Shown in pieces: positions 1-12,609 of a DNA stretch of 39,836 nucleotides (positions are counted from its first letter, which is position 1; each line of letters opens with the position of its first letter). A program made the position numbers and the translations under genes. The notes beneath the pieces are model-generated. The model was given only the letters and a program-made list of their open reading frames with translations. It was not told where the DNA came from and did not search any database. The DNA lies in assembly GCA_903926465.1 (NCBI GenBank), contig CAIYJE010000134.1:1-39836 (forward strand). The letters run 5' to 3'. Source of the DNA: an uncultured Planctomycetales bacterium. GTDB taxonomy: Bacteria > Planctomycetota > Planctomycetia > Isosphaerales > Isosphaeraceae.

Positions 1-2
1 AG

Positions 3-1502
3 GGCCAACAGCAAGGGATGAAGCCCAAGCCCGGCGACCAGGCCGGCCAGGATGCGCAGCAGAACCCTGAGGGTGGCAACCAGGAAAATGCTGGCCAGAA
101 GCCAGCCGATGGTCAAAAACCTGCCGATGGTCAGAAGGGCCAGCAGCAAGGGATGAAGCCCAAGCCGGGAGACCAGGCTGGCCAGGATGCGCAGCAAAAC
201 CCTGATGGTGGCAACCAGGAAAATGCTGGTCAGAAGCCAGCCGACGGTCAAAAACCAGCCGACGGCCAGAAGGGCGAGCAGCAAGGGATGAAGCCCAAGC
301 CCGGCGACCAGGCCAACCAGGATGCGCAGCAGAACCCTGAGGGTGGCAATCCCGAGAACGCAGGCCAGAAGCCAGCCGATGGTCAAAAGCCTGCCGATAG
401 CCAGAAAGGCCAGTCTGGCGAGAAGGGCCAGTCCGGCGAGAAAGGCCAGTCTGGCGAGAAGGGCCAGTCCGGCGAGAAAGGTCAGTCGGGCGAGAAGGGC
501 CAGTCGGGCGAGAAGGGCCAGTCGGGCGAGAAAGGCCAGTCGGGCGAGAAGGGCCAATCCGGCGAGAAGGGCCAGTCCGGCGAGAAAGGCCAGTCTGGCG
601 AGAAGGGCCAGTCCGGCGAGAAAGGCCAGTCCGGTGAGAAAGGCCAGTCCGGTGAGAAAGGTCAGTCCGGTGAGAAAGGTCAGTCCGGTGAGAAAGGTCA
701 GTCCGGCGAGAAAGGCCAGTCTGGTGAGAAAGGTCAGTCCGGCGAGAAGGGCCAGTCTGGCGAGAAAGGTCAGTCCGGTGAGAAAGGTCAGTCCGGCGAG
801 AAAGGCCAGTCTGGTGAGAAAGGTCAGTCCGGCGAGAAGGGCCAGTCTGGCGAGAAGGGCCAATCTGGCGAGGGAAACAAGAGCGAGCGGGCCCAGCCAT
901 CGGACGCGCCCGGGGGTGAATCAATGAGCGAGGGTGGGAATCGGGTTGGGGGTTCCGCTCAACCGCTTGACCCGAATGGCCGTGGCTTTGATCCCCAGAC
1001 AGAGAAGCCAGGGGCCGCTCCTGAAAATCCTGGAGATTTGCCGATCCCCGATCAGGCCTCCAGTAAGCCAGAACTAGTGCTTCGAGAACTCAAGGACCTG
1101 ATCAACAGTGGTCAAGACCTCTCGAAAATCGAGGAGTCAACCGGTTTATCAAGGGATCAGATTGAGCAGTTCGTGAAGAAATTTGAAAAACCGGAACGGG
1201 AAGCTGCAGGCGAAGGTCGGGCGGTCAACTCGGACCAGGGGAACGATCAGGCGGTCAGCCCAGACCGTAAACTTGATAGCCGGGTCAACCAGCCGCTGGT
1301 CAGTGGTCGTGGGAACCGTGGTCCAGGTGCCGTGGTTCAAGACACGATGCGAGATCAAACCCAGGGGCTCAGGAGCCAGGCTCCTGCGGAGATCCGATCC
1401 CGGTTTGAAGCCTATCAGAGCAGTATCTCACGTTCCAAAACCAAAGCCTCGCCAACTTCGAAGGCTCCTGCACCTGGTTCGGGCGCTGGAACTGGAAAGT
1501 GA
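3..1502 (+). CDS. Repeat-rich Gln/Gly protein with collagen-like tract, 3' part only
   Basis: The frame is open to the left edge of the window. The residues before the first Met (GQQQG) continue the repeat, so the true start lies upstream and the Met codons at 18, 153 and 288 are internal repeat residues. Numbering from codon 18, the protein has almost three copies of a 45-residue Gln/Asn/Gly/Lys-rich repeat (MKPKPGDQ start). It continues with 26 tandem hexapeptides GQSGEK at residues 131-286, which are 52 uninterrupted Gly-X-Y triplets. An acidic Ser/Gly linker follows, then a non-repetitive C-terminal domain (about 345-494) containing a short predicted helix-turn-helix-like stretch (LSKIEESTGLSRDQIEQFVK). 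I do not recognise the family with certainty. The tail resembles large planctomycete coiled-coil membrane proteins such as DUF4175-like ones, which is a guess. No signal peptide or membrane segment is visible in this part. nadB follows after about 100 bases. Confidence 0.8.
   Translation, partial: GQQQGMKPKPGDQAGQDAQQNPEGGNQENAGQKPADGQKPADGQKGQQQGMKPKPGDQAGQDAQQNPDGGNQENAGQKPADGQKPADGQKGEQQGMKPKPGDQANQDAQQNPEGGNPENAGQKPADGQKPADSQKGQSGEKGQSGEKGQSGEKGQSGEKGQSGEKGQSGEKGQSGEKGQSGEKGQSGEKGQSGEKGQSGEKGQSGEKGQSGEKGQSGEKGQSGEKGQSGEKGQSGEKGQSGEKGQSGEKGQSGEKGQSGEKGQSGEKGQSGEKGQSGEKGQSGEKGQSGEGNKSERAQPSDAPGGESMSEGGNRVGGSAQPLDPNGRGFDPQTEKPGAAPENPGDLPIPDQASSKPELVLRELKDLINSGQDLSKIEESTGLSRDQIEQFVKKFEKPEREAAGEGRAVNSDQGNDQAVSPDRKLDSRVNQPLVSGRGNRGPGAVVQDTMRDQTQGLRSQAPAEIRSRFEAYQSSISRSKTKASPTSKAPAPGSGAGTGK
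18..407 (+). repeat. 135-bp coding tandem repeat, nearly three copies
   Basis: Near-identical 135-base units start at 18, 153 and 288 and encode a 45-residue repeat. Differences are mostly synonymous (for example cag/caa, ggc/gga) with a few substitutions such as E to D and Q to P. The third copy is cut short where it runs into the 18-base array. More copies probably lie upstream of the window, since the sequence at 3-17 matches the end of a unit. Confidence 0.9.
408..875 (+). repeat. 18-bp coding tandem array, 26 units (Gly-X-Y)
   Basis: Twenty-six head-to-tail 18-base units encode GQSGEK, the last ending GEG. Variation is confined to third positions (tcc/tct/tcg, ggc/ggt, aag/aaa), so the peptide is kept while the DNA drifts. 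A perfect higher-order duplication of five units lies inside the array (672-761 equals 762-851), which points to recent unequal exchange or slippage. Confidence 0.95.
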
Positions 1503-1605
1503 CGGCTGAAGAACGGTTGGGTTGGGGAGTGAGCCTGCCATCCGATTCGGTTAGGATATGTCTGTTAACTCCCGACCCATCCGTGTTTGAAGATGATTTT
1601 TGCTG

Positions 1606-3276
1606 ATGGCCAATCCACCGTCCACGGTTCTTCGCCGGTACTTGACAAGTTTTGACCTTCGAGACGCCCCACATCATTTCACGGATGTGTTGATCATCGG
1701 TGGTGGTGTTGCGGGGCTTCGGGCTGCGCTTGGGATTCCAGAGCCGTTCCGGGCTCTGGTGATTACCAAAGACGAGATCCGAGAGAGTAATTCCGTCTAT
1801 GCCCAAGGTGGAATTGCCGGTGTACTCGATCCCGAAGATGCCTTTGAGGATCATATTGCCGACACGCTTGCTGCCGGCAAGGGGCTTTGCAATCCGGATG
1901 TGGTCAAAGAGGTCATCGAAGCGGCCCCCAAGCGGATTCAGGAGTTGATCCACTGGGGAACGAAGTTTGACCTGGCCGGAGAACAGATGGCGTTGGGCCT
2001 GGAAGGAGGTCATTCGCATGCTCGAATTGTGCATGCCCTGGGTGACGCTACGGGCCGAGAAGTGATGAGGGCAATCATTGCCCAAACGCGCAAGCAGCCC
2101 CAGGTCCGGATCTGGCAGAACAGTTTCACTATTGATTTGATTACTTATGAAGGGCGTTGCCGGGGCGCCATTGTTTGGGATAAGCGCCGCGGGCCTTCTC
2201 TGGTCTGGGCGGCGGCCACCGTGCTTGCCACCGGCGGGGCTGGACAGATTTATCGAGAGAGCACGAACCCGAATATTGCCACCGGAGATGGTCATGCGCT
2301 GGCCTTTCGGGCGGGTGCAGAGCTTCGCGACATGGAATTCATGCAATTCCATCCCACGGTCCTTTACGTGGCTGGCTCATCCAGGCATTTGCTGACCGAG
2401 GCTTTGCGTGGCGAAGGGGCGTATCTGCGAGATAAAGACGGGCACCGATTCATGCCGGATTTCCATCCGCAGGGGGAACTTGCGCCTCGTGATGAGGTTT
2501 CCAAGGCCATTGTGGAGGTGATGTCTCGAACGCAGCACCCATGCGTGTACCTGGACCTCTCTCACCTTGACCCCATCAAAACCCGCAAGCGGTTTCCAGG
2601 GATCGACGAATTGCTGCGCGGGTTTGATCTCGATCTGACCAGCGATCCGATTCCGGTCCGGCCGGGAGCCCACTATTACATGGGGGGTGTAACGGTTGAC
2701 CTTCGCGGCCGAACATCACTGCCTGGTCTTTGGGCGGCCGGCGAAGTGACCTCCAGCGGCCTCCATGGCGCCAATCGGCTGGCCTCAAACAGCCTGCTGG
2801 AAGGCCTGGTTTATGGGGCCTGCGTGGCGGAAGATATTACCGAACGGCTTCAGGAAGAAGGGCCGGTTCGGCTGGAAGTGCCGCCTGTTTTTCCCCACAA
2901 AGAGCTTGCGACCGGCCCTCGTATCCACCTGGACCTGAACGATATCCGGAACGCCCTTCGGTCTCTGATGTGGCGACGGGTCGGAATCACAAGGGATGCG
3001 GCAAGCCTGGAGGAAGCGGCTCGGCAGGTCGATTTTTGGTGCGGATACGCACTTCCACAACTGTTTGACGAGCCAGGAGGATGGACGCTGCAAAATATGC
3101 TCACCATCTCCAGGCTGATGATCGCATCGGCCAGCGAACGACGTGAGTCTCGTGGTGTCCACACCCGATCCGATTTTCCGCAAACCGACCCAGCCCAGGC
3201 CATCCATCTGGCATTCCAAGCGCAAACCGATTCAGCGGCTGGATTTCCGCCCCCATCTTACATAGAGCCAATCTAA
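1606..3276 (+). CDS. nadB: L-aspartate oxidase (NadB)
   Basis: FAD-dependent oxidation of L-aspartate to iminoaspartate, the first step of de novo NAD synthesis in the cytoplasm. The 556-residue protein has the N-terminal dinucleotide-binding motif IIGGGVAGLRAA at about 30-41, then SVYAQGGIAGV, LEGGHSHARIVHALGDATG and LLTEALRGEGAYL. The succinate dehydrogenase/NadB signature HYYMGGVTVD is followed by LPGLWAAGEV and the FAD-binding HGANRLASNSLLEG. A helical C-terminal domain completes a normal family length. The ATG at 1606 was preferred to a TTG two codons upstream; neither has a strong ribosome site. No nadA or nadC is adjacent, so the pathway is dispersed. Identification is secure from the motif order. 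Confidence 0.97.
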   Translation: MANPPSTVLRRYLTSFDLRDAPHHFTDVLIIGGGVAGLRAALGIPEPFRALVITKDEIRESNSVYAQGGIAGVLDPEDAFEDHIADTLAAGKGLCNPDVVKEVIEAAPKRIQELIHWGTKFDLAGEQMALGLEGGHSHARIVHALGDATGREVMRAIIAQTRKQPQVRIWQNSFTIDLITYEGRCRGAIVWDKRRGPSLVWAAATVLATGGAGQIYRESTNPNIATGDGHALAFRAGAELRDMEFMQFHPTVLYVAGSSRHLLTEALRGEGAYLRDKDGHRFMPDFHPQGELAPRDEVSKAIVEVMSRTQHPCVYLDLSHLDPIKTRKRFPGIDELLRGFDLDLTSDPIPVRPGAHYYMGGVTVDLRGRTSLPGLWAAGEVTSSGLHGANRLASNSLLEGLVYGACVAEDITERLQEEGPVRLEVPPVFPHKELATGPRIHLDLNDIRNALRSLMWRRVGITRDAASLEEAARQVDFWCGYALPQLFDEPGGWTLQNMLTISRLMIASASERRESRGVHTRSDFPQTDPAQAIHLAFQAQTDSAAGFPPPSYIEPI

Positions 3277-3717
3277 ACCTTGGTTCGTTTCCAGGAAACC
3301 ATTCTTAACCCGGCCAGACTTGCAGGTTTGTCCCCGGTTCGTACGAGTTCTGAGATTAGCTGCTATCCAGGCGATTTCAAAACCTGGGACAGGTACCTCG
3401 CAAACGCGGAACCAGTCCCAGTTTTGATACGGCTTCTGACCAATGCAAGCTGCCTGCAAAGGAGCAGAGATCAAACTCCCGTTCCTGCATTCGGATCGTT
3501 CTGGTTTTGAACGCTCTGGGGATGCAAAGTAGGCCAAGCTCTCCGATTCTGCTGACGAGATGATGCAGGATTTGAGCGGCCGGGTTGAACCGCGGTGGTC
3601 TTTTGCTGGATAATAAACATTGTTGGTGAGATTCCTTCTCATCTTCCCGCCGGGGCGCTCTTTCGTGACCGCCCTGCCCTCCTGCCTTCATTCCGCTTAG
3701 CGAGGACGTGGTTCCTG
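3277..3717 (+). other. Intergenic region between nadB and the inositol-phosphate-synthase-like gene
   Basis: About 440 bases without a convincing gene; the short open frames here lack ribosome sites and recognisable content. The only structured signal I can support is a sigma-70-type promoter candidate at 3585-3614. The upstream 300 bases show no strong hairpin or RNA fold. Confidence 0.6.
3585..3614 (+). promoter_or_regulatory. Candidate sigma-70 promoter for the inositol-phosphate-synthase-like operon
   Basis: TTGAAC (3585-3590, 4 of 6 matches to the -35 consensus) and GATAAT (3609-3614, 5 of 6 to the -10 consensus) are separated by 18 bases. They lie about 100 bases upstream of the chosen ATG at 3718. 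This is pattern matching only; planctomycete promoters are poorly characterised. Confidence 0.4.
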
Positions 3718-4938
3718 ATGCCTGCGCCTTCTCATCGCCGTGTTGGCCTTTGGCTCGTTGGTGCTTATGGCGGTGTTGGAACCTCGATCGCGGTGGGGCT
3801 TGCAAGCCTCTCTCGCGGACTCAAACCGGCAACCGGTCTGGTGACGGAATTGCCGATGTTCCGAGGTGCCGCACTTCCGGCCCTGAGCGAATTCGTTGTG
3901 GGTGGCCATGATATCCGCCAGGGATCATTTGGCGAATCCGCCTCAGAGTTTCGTGCGGGTTCAGGGGTTTTTGAGCCCGAACTACTGGCGGCCATTAGTG
4001 ATGACCTGGCCGCCGCTTCGGCCAGGGTTCGATCTGGAACCGTTCGGGGCACGGGGAAATCTATCACCCGTATGGCGGACTGGAATCCGTCCGATGGCGC
4101 AGACACCACGGCCCAGGTTCTTGACCGGATCTCGGCCGACCTGGAAGCGTTCGTTCAGAGCGAATCGATTGATCACCTGATCGTTCTTAACGTATCTAGC
4201 ACCGAGCCGCCGTTCCCGGCCAAGCCCGAACATGAGTCTTGGCAGCAATTGAACGCGGCCTTGGCCTCCGATACCGGCGAACTTCTGCCGGCAAGTTCGC
4301 TTTATGCACTGGCTGCGCTCCGCCAGGGCCATACTTATATCAACTTCACGCCAAGCCTTGGTGCCTCATTCCCCGCGGCTCACCAGATTGCTGAACAAAC
4401 TGGCGCACTTCACGCTGGTAAGGACGGCAAGACCGGCGAGACCCTGATGAAGACCGTGCTCGCGCCGATGTTCGCTCACCGAAACCTCCAGGTGATGAGC
4501 TGGGTGGGGCACAATATCTTTGGGAACCGGGATGGCCAAATTCTTGACGATCCGGTCAACAAGGCTTCCAAGGTGAGCACGAAAGACCAGGTGGTACACC
4601 AGATCCTGGGGTACAAGCCATCGACATTGGTCACCATTGAATACATTCCCGACATGGGCGATTGGAAAACCGCCTGGGATCACATTCACTTCAAAGGTTT
4701 CATGGGTACGGCCATGACCCTCCAGTTTACCTGGCAGGGGTGCGATAGTCTGCTCGCCGCTCCGCTCGCAATTGACCTGGCACGGCTAGCCGACCTTGAG
4801 AAGCAGCGCGGTGGGCGTGGCCTCATGAAACACCTGGCCAGCTTCTTCAAAAGCCCAGAGGGGGTCCCCGAGAACGATTTCTTCAGGCAGTTCACCATGC
4901 TTGAGGAATATGTTGCCAGCCTTGGCACTCAAAAGTAA
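3718..4938 (+). CDS. Inositol-3-phosphate synthase-like NAD-dependent cyclase
   Basis: Member of the myo-inositol-1-phosphate synthase family, which converts glucose 6-phosphate to inositol 3-phosphate by NAD-dependent oxidation, aldol cyclisation and reduction. The 406-residue protein has the Rossmann motif GAYGGVG at 15-21, LNVSSTEPP at 158-165, and YINFTPSLGAS at 207-217. The central block KDGKTGETLMK (235-245) holds candidate catalytic lysines. GHNIFGNRDG follows at 264-273, then a C-terminal block with GDWKTAWD and LQFTWQGCDSLLAAPLA. The length fits the shorter bacterial type. The ATG at 3718 has GAGGA 11 bases upstream; the longer frame from 3595 adds an unlikely N-terminus. It leads a four-gene run with TIM-barrel, UbiA and TIM-barrel genes, so the product may feed a prenylated or exported metabolite rather than inositol lipids. 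The exact substrate is not proven by sequence. Confidence 0.88.
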   Translation: MPAPSHRRVGLWLVGAYGGVGTSIAVGLASLSRGLKPATGLVTELPMFRGAALPALSEFVVGGHDIRQGSFGESASEFRAGSGVFEPELLAAISDDLAAASARVRSGTVRGTGKSITRMADWNPSDGADTTAQVLDRISADLEAFVQSESIDHLIVLNVSSTEPPFPAKPEHESWQQLNAALASDTGELLPASSLYALAALRQGHTYINFTPSLGASFPAAHQIAEQTGALHAGKDGKTGETLMKTVLAPMFAHRNLQVMSWVGHNIFGNRDGQILDDPVNKASKVSTKDQVVHQILGYKPSTLVTIEYIPDMGDWKTAWDHIHFKGFMGTAMTLQFTWQGCDSLLAAPLAIDLARLADLEKQRGGRGLMKHLASFFKSPEGVPENDFFRQFTMLEEYVASLGTQK

Positions 4939-5031
4939 TTGCCGGGCAGGATCTCACTAGGGCTTCAGCATCATTCAAGATGGCTATCAACGTGGAGCGG
5001 TCTGTACGCTCCACTGAAGGAAGATCGACCG

Positions 5032-5886
5032 ATGAGACTGGCTTTTAGCACTAACGCATACATGAAGTATCCGTTCGATGAGGCGGCCGCTCGAATCTCT
5101 GCCATTGGCTATGACGGCCTTGAACTCATGGCCGATGTTCCGCATGCCTGGCCCGCCGGACTTCTACCTGGCACCAAGCGCGGCATCCGCGAGGCCATGG
5201 AGCGAAACCATTTACGGTTCTCGAACGTCAATGCGTTCATGATGAATGCGGTCAATGACCATCGCCAGCCCTACTGGTACCCCTCGTTCATCGAGCCAGA
5301 CCTGGGTTATCGTCGGGTCCGGATTGATCATACCCAGCGCTCACTTGAGCTGTGCGCAGAGCTTGGTGCGCCCCATATCACCACGGAACCGGGTGGTCCG
5401 CTGGCACCTGGCCAGAACCGGTCAGATGCCATTACCTTGTTTGTGGAAGCCCTCAAGCCACTCGCCGAGCATGCTGATCGTCTTAGGGTTGGGTTGCTCA
5501 TTGAACCCGAGCCCGGCTTGCTCATTGAGACCACGGAAGAATATCTGGAAGTTGCTGATCGGGTGAACTCGCCATCCATTGGCTTGAATTTTGATGTCGG
5601 CCATGCGTACTGCATGAGCGAGGATATTCCTGCTCAAATTCGCAAGCTGGCGCCACACATTCAGCATTTCCATTTTGAGGATATCGCGGCCACTCGCGTC
5701 CACCATCACCTTGTGCCAGGCTCTGGTGCGATCGACTTCGCCCCAATCATAACCGCCATCCATGAAATTGGATACAACCGCTGGCTCACCGTTGAGCTGT
5801 ATCCGTTCATTGATGATCCCGATGCTGCGGCTCGGCGTGCGTTCGAAGTTCTCAAGCCGCTCGTCGTCAAGACCCAGCCTTCATGA
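5032..5886 (+). CDS. TIM-barrel sugar-phosphate isomerase/epimerase-like protein 1
   Basis: Xylose isomerase-like TIM barrel (AP endonuclease 2 family, PF01261 type), 284 residues and probably cytoplasmic. Visible features are the N-terminal strand MRLAFSTNAYMKYP and IGYDGLELM, then ITTEPGGP, LLIEPEPGLLIET, IGLNFDVGHAYC, HFHFEDIAA and the H-rich HHHLVPGSGAIDF. The last four contribute the Glu/Asp/His metal ligands expected in this fold. The ATG at 5032 has GGAAG about nine bases upstream; the longer frame from a TTG at 4939 is implausible. The stop codon overlaps the start of the UbiA gene (ATGA), so the two are translationally coupled. It is similar to the barrel at 6841 and resembles EboE in fold but is shorter than the EboE proteins I recall. 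Substrate unknown. Confidence 0.88.
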   Translation: MRLAFSTNAYMKYPFDEAAARISAIGYDGLELMADVPHAWPAGLLPGTKRGIREAMERNHLRFSNVNAFMMNAVNDHRQPYWYPSFIEPDLGYRRVRIDHTQRSLELCAELGAPHITTEPGGPLAPGQNRSDAITLFVEALKPLAEHADRLRVGLLIEPEPGLLIETTEEYLEVADRVNSPSIGLNFDVGHAYCMSEDIPAQIRKLAPHIQHFHFEDIAATRVHHHLVPGSGAIDFAPIITAIHEIGYNRWLTVELYPFIDDPDAAARRAFEVLKPLVVKTQPS

Positions 5887-6806
5887 GTGAACCAGGGCGG
5901 CCCGGCCGCATGCTTGCCTTTTTGAAGCTGATCCGGTTGCCCAATGTGTTCACTGCGGCCGCCGATAGCCTGGCTGGCTGGGTGATCGCCGGTTCGGCCC
6001 TCGTCGATCCTGCGCACTGGTGGCCGCTACCGCTGGCTTCCATGTGTGTTTATGCCGCCGGTATGGCTTTGAATGACCTGTGCGATCTGAAGCTTGACCG
6101 GAAGGAGCGGCCTGATCGGCCGCTTCCGTCCGGGGCCATCAAGCCAGCGCACGCTTGGTTTCTGGTTGCCACCCTGTTCAGTCTTGCCTGGTGCCTTGTA
6201 AGCCTGACCCACAGCGTTCAATCTCTGATTGTCCTCGGCAGCCTGATCGCAAGCGTGGTGGCTTACGACGTTTTCCTGCGACGAACTCTGGTTGGGCCGG
6301 TCAGCATGGGCACATGTCGAGGTTTGAACCTCGCACTCGGGCTCAGTGTGGCGGCTGATCTGGGTGGCGTATCTGCTTGGCTGGCCGCGTTGGCGTTTGG
6401 GTTGTTTGTCACCGGCATCACATATATCAGTCTGAGCGAAGTCGAGGGGGGAAGATCCCGATCACTCTGGCTCGGGCGAAATGTGCAACGCGCTGCATTC
6501 GTTGGTTTTGTGCTTTCTGTAGGTCTGCGCCTGTTGCAACACCCTCCAGGTCTGATTCCACCCTGGAACTGGGGATTACCGCCTGTCATCCTGGGTCTGG
6601 CATTATGGAAAAATGAGTTGGCCGGCAAATTGGCCTGGTTTCAGGCCAGTCCAGGGTCGATCCAGAATGTGGTGAGAACTGGAATCTTCTCCCTGATCTG
6701 GCTAGATACGGCGCTTGCGGCATCGGCGGGTGGGCTGTGGGCAATTGCAGTGGCCGCCTGCTGGATTCCTGCCCGGCTGGCTGGAAAATGGCTCTACTCC
6801 ACGTGA
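5883..6806 (+). CDS. UbiA-family prenyltransferase (EboC-like)
   Basis: Integral membrane protein of 307 residues with about eight hydrophobic segments, belonging to the UbiA superfamily that transfers prenyl groups to aromatic or polar acceptors. The first metal/diphosphate motif is intact: NDLCDLKLD at 64-72, followed by RKERPDRPLPSG. The second aspartate motif is not canonical; at the equivalent position after ITYISLS there is only EVEGG. That fits EboC-type members of the superfamily better than UbiA, MenA or digeranylgeranylglyceryl-phosphate synthase, but the assignment is mine. Its ATG overlaps the stop of the preceding TIM-barrel gene by four bases, and the second barrel begins about 35 bases after its end. 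Confidence 0.88.
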   Translation: MSEPGRPGRMLAFLKLIRLPNVFTAAADSLAGWVIAGSALVDPAHWWPLPLASMCVYAAGMALNDLCDLKLDRKERPDRPLPSGAIKPAHAWFLVATLFSLAWCLVSLTHSVQSLIVLGSLIASVVAYDVFLRRTLVGPVSMGTCRGLNLALGLSVAADLGGVSAWLAALAFGLFVTGITYISLSEVEGGRSRSLWLGRNVQRAAFVGFVLSVGLRLLQHPPGLIPPWNWGLPPVILGLALWKNELAGKLAWFQASPGSIQNVVRTGIFSLIWLDTALAASAGGLWAIAVAACWIPARLAGKWLYST

Positions 6807-6840
6807 TTCCCTCCTGAGTTTCCAGATCAATCCCAAGGTC

Positions 6841-7689
6841 ATGACCATGCTGCTAGGCTATAACACAAACGGTCTGCCGCACCATCGGCTCCTAGATGCG
6901 ATTGACCTGCTGGCCGAACTGGGATATCGCAGTGTGGCCATCACTCTCGACGCCGGCGCGCTCGATCCCTTTGACGACCCAGAGCACCTTCAGCGCCAGT
7001 TGAAAGCGGTTCGTGATCGGCTTGATCATCATGGGTTGAACCGTGTGGTTGAAACGGGTGCACGCTTCTTGCTGAACCCGCGTTTGAAGCACGATCCCAC
7101 GCTCCTAGATCCCAATCCGCAGCGCCGGGCGCTCCGAGAACGGTTTCTGAAGGTTGCCATTGATATCGCCCACCAGCTCAACGCAGACGTGGTTTCGCTT
7201 TGGTCGGGGTCTGTACCCGCAGGGGTGTCTCAAGGTGAGGCGATGGAGCACCTTGTGCGTTCAATGCAGCAGGTTCTTTTACACGCGGAAAAAACGGGGT
7301 GCTTGCTCGGTTTTGAACCGGAGCCCGGTTTCTTGATCGATCGGCTCGGGCGGTTCCAGGAACTGGATCGCCGGCTCGATCATCCGCTCTTCCAGTTAAC
7401 GCTGGATATTGGTCATGTTCATTGCAATGAGGAGGGGTCGATCGCGGATCACGTGCGGCGCTGGTCCCATCGCATCGTGAACGTGCACATTGAGGACATG
7501 GTTCCCAACGTGCACGACCACCTGATGTTTGGCGCGGGCACCATTGATTTCACTCCGGTGCTGGATGCGCTCGTGGAGACCGGCTACCAGGGGGGGGTCC
7601 ACGTTGAACTGAGTCGCCATGGGCATGCCGGCGCGGATGCCGCACGGCAGTCGGCCGAATTTCTCAAGCCATTGGCAATTTGGGCTTGA
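6841..7689 (+). CDS. TIM-barrel sugar-phosphate isomerase/epimerase-like protein 2
   Basis: Second xylose isomerase-like TIM barrel of this operon, 282 residues. It starts MTMLLGYNTNGLPHH and carries LGFEPEPGFLID, LTLDIGHVHC, VHIEDMV and HDHLMFGAGTIDF, matching the blocks of the barrel at 5032-5886 one by one. The two are therefore paralogues. Glu, Asp and His metal ligands appear conserved. The frame is open back to 6715 inside the UbiA gene. I chose the ATG at 6841; the ATG at 6847 is also possible, with AAGG nine bases before it. It is the last gene of the operon, since the next 580 bases are non-coding. An EboE-like role in metabolite trafficking is an inference from the UbiA neighbour. 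Confidence 0.87.
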   Translation: MTMLLGYNTNGLPHHRLLDAIDLLAELGYRSVAITLDAGALDPFDDPEHLQRQLKAVRDRLDHHGLNRVVETGARFLLNPRLKHDPTLLDPNPQRRALRERFLKVAIDIAHQLNADVVSLWSGSVPAGVSQGEAMEHLVRSMQQVLLHAEKTGCLLGFEPEPGFLIDRLGRFQELDRRLDHPLFQLTLDIGHVHCNEEGSIADHVRRWSHRIVNVHIEDMVPNVHDHLMFGAGTIDFTPVLDALVETGYQGGVHVELSRHGHAGADAARQSAEFLKPLAIWA

Positions 7690-8655: not shown

Positions 8656-9729
8656 ATGACGATGCCTTCGAAGCTCTCTCGAAGAGCGCGTGGTTTTACG
8701 CTCATCGAACTGCTGGTGGTCATCTCGATTATCGGTGTGCTGGTTTCGCTGCTGCTGCCGGCCGTGCAGTCTGCACGTGAAGCTGCTCGTCGCGCTCAGT
8801 GCGTGAACAACCTGAAGCAACTAGGCCTAGCATCTCATAACTATCTGGACAAGTGGAATGCTCTTCCTTCGGGCTACCGCTGGGATCCTCTAACCGGCTC
8901 GCTGGCAGGGTATGTTGGAACCGGTCACGGTTTCATTCCCCCCTTGCTTTCCGAAATGGAACAGACCTCCGTCATGAATAGCTGGAACATGTCGGTGAAC
9001 ATGTTCTATAACGAGAACCTCACGGTGTGGGGCGTTGCGATCAACACCCTGTGGTGCCCCAGCGACGGTAAGATCAATCAGGTCAAGACCCTGCCCAACT
9101 ACATCGGTTACTTCAGCGACCCTCCGGGACAGTCTGGCAAGATGGCTTACAGCAGCTATGGTGGTAACGGTGGTCTTTGGACCAACAACTGCTACGCCAA
9201 GCGATCAACCTACGGCCAGGTTCTTGCCAACGAAATGGGTATGTTCGGTTGCTTTACCCAGACCCGCCTTCAGGACGTGACCGACGGTACCAGCAACACC
9301 ATGCTGTTCGGTGAGCACGCTCACGGTACCTTCAGCCCTAGCGATCAGGACGGCTGGAACTGGTGGATTTCTGGTAACTGGGGTGACACTTTGAACACCA
9401 CCATGTTCCCACTCAATCCCGTTCGCAAAATCAAGGATGAAGCCGGTGGTCTGAACGCAACGGCGTTCATCGTGGCATTCTCCAGCTTCCACCCTGGTGG
9501 CGGTAACTTCTGCTTTGCCGATGGTTCGGTGAAGTTCATCAAGGATTCGATCAACACCTGGCAGATTAACTCCCAGACTCAGCTTCCCGTGGGCGTGACT
9601 GCGACCACCGTTGGATCCAGTGCTTACTGGGACACGGTCTACGTGATTGCCCCAGGTGCTCGGATGGGCGTTTACCAGCAGCTCTCGACCAAGAATGGTA
9701 ACGAAGTGATCAGCGCAGGCGACTATTGA
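8656..9729 (+). CDS. DUF1559 pilin-like protein with type IV prepilin N-terminus
   Basis: A 357-residue planctomycete/verrucomicrobial DUF1559 protein. After a short basic leader (SKLSRRARG) comes the prepilin cleavage and hydrophobic helix motif [17 protein letters not shown] with Glu at +5. The family block [25 protein letters not shown] follows. The C-terminal H-X-G-DG type signature is present as [18 protein letters not shown]. It should be processed by a prepilin peptidase and assembled through or anchored in the inner membrane as a pseudopilin-like surface protein. A strong GGAGG site is eight bases upstream of the first ATG; a second ATG follows two codons later. Codon use (many aac, ggt, ctg) suggests high expression. 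A strong terminator follows directly. A GspF-like protein is encoded about 7 kb away. Confidence 0.97.
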
Positions 9730-9981: not shown

Positions 9982-10812
9982 TCAGGAGGTTGCGAGCTTC
10001 TCTTTTCTGGGCTCGAAGCGAAACCGCTGACACTGAGAGAAGAACGCGAGCGGGTTCTCATAAACCACTCTCCGAATTGTGCTTTCTGAATGCCCACGAG
10101 CCCGCATTTCAAAGATGAACTCAGGGACCGCCAAAGGATCGCTGTGGCCCCAATCGCCGGCCGAATTTACCATGATCCGTTCGGTCCCATAAATTTCGAT
10201 CAGGTCGGCTGCCCGACTCGGGGTACACTTCGTAATTGGATAGAGCGTCATTCCAACCCAGTGCCCAGCTTCCAGGGCGGGCCGGATGGTGTGCTCTTCC
10301 ACATGGTCAATACAAACCCGAGAGGCTGAAATCCTGGACTCATGGGCAAGCATGTCCAAAATCATCCGCGTTCCCTGGTACTTATCGGCCAGGTGCGGTG
10401 TATGGACAAGCACCAGTTCATTGGTGCGAGATGCCAGATCGAGGTGTTCCCGGAAGATGATCGATTCATTCTTGGTGTTCTTGTTGAGCCCGATCTCACC
10501 AATCCCTAGAACGTTGGGAAGCTCCAGAAATTCAGGAATCATGGCAATCACTTCGCGTGAAAGCGAGACGTTCTCTGCCTCTTTGGCGTTGATGCAAAGC
10601 CAGCAGGCGTGCTCAATTCCATAAAGCTTCGCACGTCGCCCTTCAACCACGGTGAGCTGACGGAAATAGTCTCGGAACCCCTCGACCCCAGAGCGATCAA
10701 AGCCGGCCCAGAACGCAGGCTCACTCACCAGCGCACAGCCTGCCATGGCCATCCGTTTGTAGTCATCGGTGGTCCGGGAAACCATGTGAATGTGTGGGTC
10801 GATGTAATTCAT
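9982..10812 (-). CDS. TatD-family metal-dependent hydrolase (EboB-like)
   Basis: A 276-residue member of the amidohydrolase/TatD superfamily. The N-terminal DPHIHM gives the D/HxH metal site. GIGEIGLNKN is the conserved Glu region, HTPH and IDHVEEHT follow, and NSAGDWGHSDP supplies the last Asp. GAGGT lies about six bases before the ATG, which supports the start. It is transcribed towards the DUF1559 gene and separated from it by two terminators. A small unknown gene lies upstream on the same strand. The divergence from housekeeping TatD DNases and the presence of a UbiA/TIM-barrel operon 3 kb away make an EboB-like role possible. The substrate is unknown. Confidence 0.85.
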   Translation of the reverse strand: MNYIDPHIHMVSRTTDDYKRMAMAGCALVSEPAFWAGFDRSGVEGFRDYFRQLTVVEGRRAKLYGIEHACWLCINAKEAENVSLSREVIAMIPEFLELPNVLGIGEIGLNKNTKNESIIFREHLDLASRTNELVLVHTPHLADKYQGTRMILDMLAHESRISASRVCIDHVEEHTIRPALEAGHWVGMTLYPITKCTPSRAADLIEIYGTERIMVNSAGDWGHSDPLAVPEFIFEMRARGHSESTIRRVVYENPLAFFSQCQRFRFEPRKEKLATS

Positions 10813-10910: not shown

Positions 10911-11201
10911 TCAGGAGCGGGGCTCAGAGCCAATCCCGAACGCAGATTGCCACTGCGGGTCATAATCTACAGAAAAGATCCGCTGCACCGTCTCTGCGCG
11001 GCTGGGTTCCGGAATACTAAGAACCTCAAGTGCCAGGCGGATCTGGGCCAGCCTTCGATCTGGATGAGAACCTGGATGCTCCGACGCACGATCGAGTCGG
11101 TCGAGCGAGGCTGCAAGTTCTAGCACCTTGGCCCGGATTTCCAGAAAATCACGGTCCAGAACAGACATGATATTGCGTTTGGGCATGTTGTTCGTAGCCA
11201 T
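10911..11201 (-). CDS. Small protein of unknown function upstream of the TatD gene
   Basis: A 96-residue soluble protein rich in charged helix (FLEIRAKVLELAASLDRLDRA, written here in part), ending in a region with IFSVDYDPQW. The frame starts at 11201, with AAGG ten bases upstream; later Met codons at positions 6 and 12 have no site. The TatD gene begins 98 bases downstream in the same direction, so the two could form an operon. I do not recognise a domain. It is much shorter than the EboA proteins I know of, so I do not assign that name. Confidence 0.65.
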   Translation of the reverse strand: MATNNMPKRNIMSVLDRDFLEIRAKVLELAASLDRLDRASEHPGSHPDRRLAQIRLALEVLSIPEPSRAETVQRIFSVDYDPQWQSAFGIGSEPRS

Positions 11202-11520
11202 CAGAGGCCCACCTTCCCGTCCTTTCAGGACACGTTGAACGTATCAAGCTCATGATGGCAGATCGTCTCTTGAAGGGCAACCGCCCGTACAAGAACTCTG
11301 GATCCGGTCGTCCGAAACCGTCTATTTCCGACGCCGAGCCGTTCCATTTTAACCAATCGGAATTGTCGAAAGATTCAAATGCTGATCTGCCTCATCGAGT
11401 GTCGGCTGGCATCTTGGTTCACTTGACTCAAACTGGTAAAATTCTTCTCGCAGGTGGTAGGACAATCGGCCCTCAGTAAGGGTTGAGCCTCAAGAAATCA
11501 CCACCCTGGAGTCTAGTCTG
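11202..11520 (+). other. Divergent intergenic region
   Basis: About 320 bases between the minus-strand small gene and the plus-strand secreted protein, presumably holding promoters for both. A TTGACT is present at 11423, but no -10 box lies at a proper distance. A 75-codon plus-strand frame (11252-11479) has no recognisable content and I do not call it. Confidence 0.5.
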
Positions 11521-12609
11521 ATGAAAAATGCCACCCGTTCCTGGATGGCCGTGTTTGGCTTATCGGCTGGTCTGGTGAATCCTTTGGGTGCAATCGCTCA
11601 GGTTGCCGACTGTTGCGGCGCTTCTGCTCCCACCCCCACCAGCTATGTTACGACCTCTTATGCGGTCCCAACCACGCAAACCACGGTCATGCGGCCGGTC
11701 ATCGCATACGAAGCACCGGTGATTTACGAATCAACCGGCTATTTGGTCGAACGCCCGACCAGAGGTCTGTTCAGTAACTTGTTCCGGCCTCGTGTCAGGG
11801 AAACAACCTACGTTGAAACGTCTTATGTTCCGCCCACGTATGACTTTGTCACGCCGACTCGGTACACCACAACGTATATCCCCACAACCGTGACTGTCGA
11901 CCTACCGGTTGTAGAAACCTCGATCACTTCCGCCGATCCTTGTAGCACCACGGTTCCAGTAATCAACGGTTCCGTTTATAACGGCAATGGCAACGGAAGT
12001 ACGGCTGTTAGTGAAACCCGGCAGCAGGTGACGGCCGCACCTCAGACCACGGTAACCAACCCGCCCAAGAGCGTTCAGAGTCGAACCGCAGTTGAGCCCG
12101 GCCGTTCCAGCGCCTCCCCTCCGCCTAGCGATGGTGCCAGCAGCGCTGGGATTGGCGGCAACCTCAATGAACCGGCTTATGAATTCCCCGCCAGCCCAAG
12201 GCCAGAGAAAACCGGTACCGATTCTGAGCCAAGCAGTGGTGGAGTGGTTGCACCCCTGGATGATGCCACGAGCCGTTCGTCCTACAAGCCCCGGCCAACC
12301 GAACTCGCTCGCCAACAGTCCAGCAGTGGTCTTGGGGCGTTGCGGGGGCAGGTGATCACGGGTGCCGATGGCAAAGCAGAGTCGAGCATCCGAGTGGTCT
12401 TCAGCGATCTTCGCAACACTTTCAAGGACCGCGAGCGAGAGAGCGATGCCAGTGGCCGCTTTGAAGTGATGTTGCCGAATGGCGACTGGGCCGTGAATGT
12501 TGTGGAGCCCGATGGTAAGCAGACTTCCTACGGCACCATTACCGTGACCTCGGGTCGTTTCTTCGACCAGCAGGATCGACCAATCTCAAGCATTCGCATC
12601 AACCACTGA
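11521..12609 (+). CDS. Secreted Tyr/Thr/Ser-rich protein with carboxypeptidase-regulatory-like domain
   Basis: A 362-residue protein. A signal peptide (about residues 1-27, ending AIAQ) is followed by a low-complexity region to about 150 rich in Tyr, Thr, Val and Pro (TYVETSYVPP, TTTYIPTTVTVD). A Ser/Pro/Gly linker comes next, then a C-terminal beta-sandwich-like module from about 270. That module has LRGQVITGADGKAESSIRVV and DASGRFEVMLPNGDW, typical of carboxypeptidase regulatory-like domains. It is likely extracytoplasmic and structural. GGAG nine bases before the ATG supports the start. A strong terminator follows immediately, so the gene is probably monocistronic. No enzymatic motif is visible. 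Confidence 0.82.
   Translation: MKNATRSWMAVFGLSAGLVNPLGAIAQVADCCGASAPTPTSYVTTSYAVPTTQTTVMRPVIAYEAPVIYESTGYLVERPTRGLFSNLFRPRVRETTYVETSYVPPTYDFVTPTRYTTTYIPTTVTVDLPVVETSITSADPCSTTVPVINGSVYNGNGNGSTAVSETRQQVTAAPQTTVTNPPKSVQSRTAVEPGRSSASPPPSDGASSAGIGGNLNEPAYEFPASPRPEKTGTDSEPSSGGVVAPLDDATSRSSYKPRPTELARQQSSSGLGALRGQVITGADGKAESSIRVVFSDLRNTFKDRERESDASGRFEVMLPNGDWAVNVVEPDGKQTSYGTITVTSGRFFDQQDRPISSIRINH

Follow-up and report, generated by a model that had tools for sequence, protein, structure and literature searches.

The ebo system and its planctomycete counterpart

The ebo genes (for eustigmatophyte and bacterial operon) occur in cyanobacteria, Bacteroidota, Deinococcota, Planctomycetota and algal plastids, among others. 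The canonical eboABCDEF set (PMC5133447, PMC6282210) includes EboB (an amidohydrolase close to TatD), the UbiA-family prenyltransferase EboC, the phosphodiesterase EboF, a xylose-isomerase-like TIM barrel (EboE) and a sugar-phosphate cyclase from the dehydroquinate synthase superfamily (EboD). In 2016, the system was proposed to join a cyclitol to an isoprenoid (PMC5133447), and in Nostoc the export of the scytonemin monomer to the periplasm depends on the genes (PMC6282210). The 2016 paper also noted three Planctomycetes without ebo clustering, two of these three without eboD, and referred to the draft state of the assemblies. Here we consider a 39,836-nucleotide stretch (the window) that is part of contig C134 (CAIYJE010000134.1) in the 6.89-Mb draft genome G000 (GCA_903926465.1) of an uncultured planctomycete of the family Isosphaeraceae. 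It probably holds the main part of a partly dispersed ebo pathway in which an NAD-dependent cyclase of the myo-inositol-phosphate synthase (MIPS) family, usually together with a TIM barrel that we call TIM2, replaces EboD, and a shorter barrel, TIM1, replaces EboE.

The core of the locus is a run of four intact genes at 3718-7689, all on the plus strand, in the order MIPS, TIM1, UbiA, TIM2. MIPS and TIM1 are separated by 93 bp, TIM1 and UbiA overlap by 4 bp, and UbiA and TIM2 are 34 bp apart. A sequence-only reading had placed a MIPS-like gene first and a UbiA gene between two TIM barrels, an arrangement that the Pfam matches bear out; its inventory overlooked an EboB-type TatD hydrolase farther along the window. 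The genes in question, with protein lengths in amino acids (aa), are:

3718..4938, plus strand: MIPS-type cyclase (myo-inositol-phosphate synthase family), 406 aa, in the EboD slot; PF07994 4e-45, PF01658 2.3e-34
5032..5886, plus strand: TIM1, xylose-isomerase-like TIM barrel, 284 aa, in the EboE slot; PF01261 (AP_endonuc_2) 3.7e-43
5883..6806, plus strand: EboC-like UbiA-family prenyltransferase, 307 aa; PF01040 2.5e-21, best NCBIfam match EboC
6841..7689, plus strand: TIM2, second xylose-isomerase-like TIM barrel, 282 aa, going with MIPS; PF01261 (AP_endonuc_2) 1.6e-38
9982..10812, minus strand: EboB-type TatD/amidohydrolase, 276 aa; weak PF01026 match (6e-8), identity to EboB, metal-ligand motifs
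G000:C126:137407-138801, on a contig other than the window's: EboF relative; 612 bits to an EboF profile that itself includes this sequence

The planctomycete set shares with the canonical system EboB, an EboC-like UbiA protein, EboF, a xylose-isomerase-like TIM barrel and a sugar-phosphate cyclase. It differs in having MIPS and TIM2 for EboD and TIM1 for EboE, in that EboA was not found, and in the dispersal of its genes.

Alternation of MIPS and EboD among planctomycetes

Does the MIPS-type cyclase exclude EboD, as the sequence-only reading invited one to ask? Profile searches for MIPS, UbiA, EboB, EboD, EboF, EboE, TIM1 and TIM2 were run on 246 planctomycete genomes, with thresholds of 1e-20 for MIPS and UbiA, 1e-25 for EboB, 1e-40 for EboE, 1e-60 for EboD and EboF, and 1e-70 for the TIM barrels. 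(Presence and absence here reflect draft genomes and score thresholds, and only the best few candidates were scored in each genome.) The answer was yes: MIPS was found in 139 genomes and EboD in 51, with 137 holding MIPS only, 49 EboD only, and 2 both. Among the 183 genomes that have both EboB and EboF, 122 carried only MIPS and 44 only EboD, 2 carried the two together, and in 15 neither was found (Fisher 7e-27, a raw tally that ignores the relatedness of the genomes). Where EboB and EboF were both missing (41 genomes), MIPS was found three times, two of these in genomes that are 77-80% complete, and EboD never. Within the window's own class, 11 of the 16 genomes had MIPS and 5 had EboD, with no overlap, and one family (f2) includes both types. 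The association of the two genes is more than coincidence: MIPS lay within 3.2 kb of UbiA in 10 of the 246 genomes, and runs of the whole set recur in other planctomycete families (below).

Since such tallies ignore kinship, an EboB tree was built (a gene tree, with 87 rows in its careful version; a quick version agreed with it). On this tree the cyclase type switches 11 times, and at least 7 of the switches are forced by supported branches. Over seven independent contrasts, MIPS and EboD were opposite in 6.8 on average and never concordant (sign test, p 0.016), in agreement with the survey. On this tree the alternation between MIPS and EboD recurs independently. For the lack of eboD in Planctomycetes noted in 2016, the survey offers a better explanation than draft assemblies.

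The two TIM barrels of the window behave differently. TIM1 is related to EboE (profile comparison, 97.7% probability, E=1.9e-12); the two co-occur in a single genome of the 246 and were opposite in 7.7 of 8 contrasts on the EboB tree (p 0.008). TIM1 replaces EboE also in the EboD genomes G041, G077 and G198, and since it alternates with EboE in EboD backgrounds too, the MIPS/EboD and TIM1/EboE replacements are separate. TIM2, on the other hand, accompanies MIPS: 110 of the 139 MIPS genomes have it and no genome among the 51 with EboD does, and its contrasts with EboD on the EboB tree were likewise opposite (p 0.031). Treating both barrels as one kind was rejected on these differing distributions. 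The sequence-only reading was right that two TIM barrels flank UbiA, but their roles differ: TIM1 takes the place of EboE, and TIM2 is a companion of MIPS. In sum, MIPS and EboD share one slot and TIM1 and EboE another, while EboB, EboC and EboF are kept. Both barrels resemble IolO, IolE, UlaE and IolI, and against the inosose dehydratase IolE model TIGR04379 (cut-off 290) TIM1 and TIM2 score 51 and 39 bits.

Clusters in other planctomycetes and other phyla

In three planctomycetes of other families (L115, L116, L117), the genes form a contiguous or almost contiguous MIPS-EboB-TIM1-UbiA-(TIM2)-EboF cluster. (In L117, UbiA and EboF are separated, at 10927-12458, by a DNA-methylase-like gene and a 216-aa gene that may be its restriction partner.) Canonical EboB-UbiA-EboF-EboD-EboE clusters are found in L113 and L118, with a subset in L119, and in many planctomycete genomes the ebo genes are split into EboA-EboB, UbiA-TIM2-EboF and MIPS.

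The evidence from phyla other than planctomycetes comes from plasmid records alone. On Streptomyces plasmids the order is MIPS-UbiA-TIM2-EboA-EboB-EboE-EboF. These clusters, which combine MIPS with a prenyltransferase of the SCO3242 family, resemble the planctomycete set in having MIPS beside UbiA, a TIM2-type barrel, EboB and EboF, but they keep EboA and EboE in one contiguous run, whereas the planctomycete has TIM1 for EboE. TIM2 comes immediately before EboA in both L204 and L205. An actinobacterial fusion of EboA with a xylose-isomerase-like domain has been reported (PMC5133447), and because of this gene order the fusion is probably one of TIM2 to EboA. In L204 (a Streptomyces camelliae plasmid), a ScyD/ScyE family protein is encoded at 5686-6888, immediately upstream of the MIPS-type cluster, a neighbor that may bring to mind the cyanobacterial link between ebo and scytonemin. 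In L205 (Streptomyces sp. NBC_01362), genes for a nonribosomal peptide synthetase (NRPS) condensation domain, an ornithine carbamoyltransferase and an MFS transporter adjoin the cluster at 1-3729.

Haloarchaeal plasmids (Natronococcus, Halobaculum, Halocatena) carry EboB-TIM-UbiA-TIM adjoining MIPS-EboF. What they have in common with the planctomycete set is EboB followed by a TIM1-type barrel, then UbiA and another TIM barrel, MIPS and EboF lying next to this row; they differ in that the second barrel is nearer to TIM1 than to TIM2 and in that EboB and EboF lie inside the cluster. Gemmatirosa has EboE and an EboB-EboF-UbiA-MIPS-TIM2 run. EboD and EboE are both present in the ebo stretches of Deinococcus and Mycetohabitans, and no TIM2-type gene was found within these EboD cluster stretches. 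(In the Deinococcus cluster L208, a 108-aa hypothetical protein is encoded at 4644-4970, just before EboB, which is the place of EboA elsewhere.) A variant ebo pathway with a MIPS-type cyclase in place of EboD, as the sequence-only reading had put forward, is thus supported by the exclusion survey, the tree contrasts and the shared clusters alike.

Part of this gene association has been recorded before. In the CDA region, SCO3242 and SCO3243 are listed as a transferase and a MIPS (PMC3610822), and Streptomyces clusters of an inositol-3-phosphate synthase and an SCO3242-family prenyltransferase are already annotated in databases. Among openly licensed papers, no published recognition of the MIPS/EboD replacement was found. 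The ebo pathway itself is already known; the variant with MIPS for EboD appears to be new.

The proteins of the locus

The window MIPS has both Pfam domains of its family and aligns end to end with the mIPS of Archaeoglobus fulgidus (PDB 1U1I, E=3e-93). Lys278, Lys367 and Asn255 of 1U1I correspond to K289, K378 and N266, and the catalytic residues of the window enzyme are thus intact. (Lys278 and Lys367 are the residues mutated in the 3QVW and 3QVX structures.) The window and Archaeoglobus enzymes share their fold family and catalytic residues and align over their full length; their genomic partners differ, and glucose 6-phosphate is the predicted substrate of the window MIPS. A comparison of MIPS with EboD showed no relationship between the two proteins.

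Among NCBIfam models, the window UbiA protein matches EboC best (NF035940, 178 bits, cut-off 250), followed by the SCO3242 family (NF045897, 166 bits, cut-off 260). The quinone, ether-lipid and all remaining UbiA families reach about 75 bits or less, and the next families in line include geranylgeranylglycerol-phosphate synthases. Its motifs, NDxxDxxxD and MGxCRxxN, are those of EboC. The second DxxxD is indeed absent, as first noticed from the sequence, but it is absent from every EboC aligned and is therefore a family trait; the idea that it marks an unusual enzyme was rejected. A supported clade in the UbiA tree groups ten EboC proteins, five of which come from genomes with MIPS and the other five from genomes with EboD; EboC proteins that are closely related to one another thus occur with either cyclase. 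The window protein groups with EboC rather than in an unrelated clade, its deep branch not being fixed by a tree rooted on one very distant sequence (the other UbiA relative of G000, of the haem-O-synthase type).

EboB of the window has 74% identity to the EboB of L011, which adjoins a TIM1-UbiA-EboF cluster, and 41-45% to those of canonical Bacteroidota ebo operons, with the metal-ligand motifs conserved; the window thus holds an EboB. (The PF01026 match to EboB is weak in published work as well.) The EboF of G000 is 44% identical to Bacteroidota EboF and 41% to that of L011, which places it in the EboF family. The EboD and EboE profiles gave no match in G000, TIM1 standing in the place of EboE. 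A hidden EboD elsewhere in the genome was considered and rejected: the sole gene of the dehydroquinate (DHQ) synthase family (PF01761) in G000 is a true aroB (382 bits, cut-off 305) on another contig. The window therefore lacks a dehydroquinate-synthase-like gene, as the sequence-only reading had said, and G000 has no separate canonical ebo operon with EboD.

As for the surroundings, the gene at 8656-9729 (plus strand), between the four-gene run and EboB, encodes a pilin-like DUF1559 protein whose N-terminus is that of a type IV prepilin. At 18-1502 (plus strand) there is a 494-aa reading frame in which a KGQSGE tandem repeat of about 25 units gives way to a less repetitive C-terminal part. 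A scan for promoters and terminators gave no more sites than shuffled sequence.

Weighing the explanations

Several observations weigh against a replaced EboD in a dispersed ebo pathway. The genes of G000 do not form one operon: EboF is on a separate contig, and EboB is 2.3 kb away on the opposite strand. The ebo-like cluster of the sequence-only reading is accordingly a dispersed one. EboA (NF035938) was not detected in G000; the same search also gave no match in the EboD-bearing G011, G028 and G168, and EboA is therefore not universal. The score of the UbiA protein is below the curated EboC cut-off, hence the name EboC-like. A relative of EboC farnesylates quinoline acids in vitro, and cyclitols were not found among its reported acceptors (PMC9235831); a cyclitol acceptor for EboC is therefore not to be assumed. 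TIM2 was missing at the threshold used from 29 of the 139 MIPS genomes and is thus not strictly needed. The two genomes with both cyclases, G106 and G153, belong to one family, and their MIPS proteins are divergent (245 and 165 bits). Finally, there are the 15 genomes with EboB and EboF and neither cyclase. Five of these (G029, G073, G150, G173, G179) have TIM2, which suggests a MIPS gene in an assembly gap. EboB, EboE and EboF were found, and MIPS, EboD and TIM2 were not, in G017, G061, G130, G133 and G219, where a third cyclase or a gap in the assembly may account for the absence.

What else could account for the locus? MIPS might be an ordinary supplier of inositol, for phosphatidylinositol or a solute, that lies beside an ebo remnant by chance, with the exclusion of EboD a lineage effect. 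MIPS is, after all, common in the Planctomycetota and mostly does not adjoin UbiA, and the catalytic residues of the window enzyme are like those of standard MIPS. However, the exclusion repeats on independent branches and inside one family, MIPS is rare and EboD absent where EboB and EboF are missing, and in Actinomycetota, haloarchaea and Gemmatimonadota MIPS lies inside ebo clusters of the same kind, all of which makes this explanation improbable. The resemblance of TIM1 and TIM2 to IolO, IolE, UlaE and IolI could instead point to a catabolic operon for cyclitols or sugar acids, in which IolE/IolI/IolO-type barrels process an inositol that MIPS makes or salvages, with UbiA present only by chance. 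But MIPS is biosynthetic, UbiA overlaps TIM1, and the same genes accompany EboA, EboB, EboE and EboF in several phyla; we give this very little credence. We think it similarly far-fetched that the product of UbiA is a quinone or an ether lipid of the archaeal type, made apart from ebo and with MIPS providing the polar head: haloarchaea do have the same gene set, and geranylgeranylglycerol-phosphate synthases are among the families next in score, but those scores are far below the match to EboC, EboC proteins from EboD-type genomes nest with those from MIPS-type genomes, and EboB and EboF go along with UbiA.

A possible pathway and its product

How might an ebo pathway with MIPS in place of EboD work? 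MIPS would cyclize glucose 6-phosphate to myo-inositol phosphate, and TIM2 may then adapt the cyclitol by isomerization, epimerization or dehydration. EboC would attach a prenyl chain to the cyclitol or a derivative, giving a membrane-anchored cyclitol, and TIM1 or EboE, EboB and EboF may cut back the head group or its phosphate, either before or after EboC acts. The product would assist in carrying a metabolite across the cytoplasmic membrane or in anchoring it there, in line with the published ebo genetics. A prenylated or lipidated cyclitol, already proposed for ebo in the literature, is plausible as that product.

It is conceivable, if rather doubtful, that MIPS (with TIM2) and EboD are unrelated routes that start from glucose 6-phosphate and end in one six-carbon cyclitol, or in two equivalent ones, and hence in an inositol-type prenyl product. 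If true, the ebo head group would resemble inositol or inosose and would differ from the seven-carbon product of sedoheptulose 7-phosphate that published work has suggested; the ebo product would then be a membrane molecule of the inositol type, linked to a prenyl chain and serving to carry metabolites. Apart from this possibility, the replacement of EboD by an enzyme family with known chemistry leaves fewer candidates for the ebo product and for the substrate of the cyclase, and it places the haloarchaeal and Streptomyces clusters, some of them close to antibiotic or NRPS genes, within the same ebo system.

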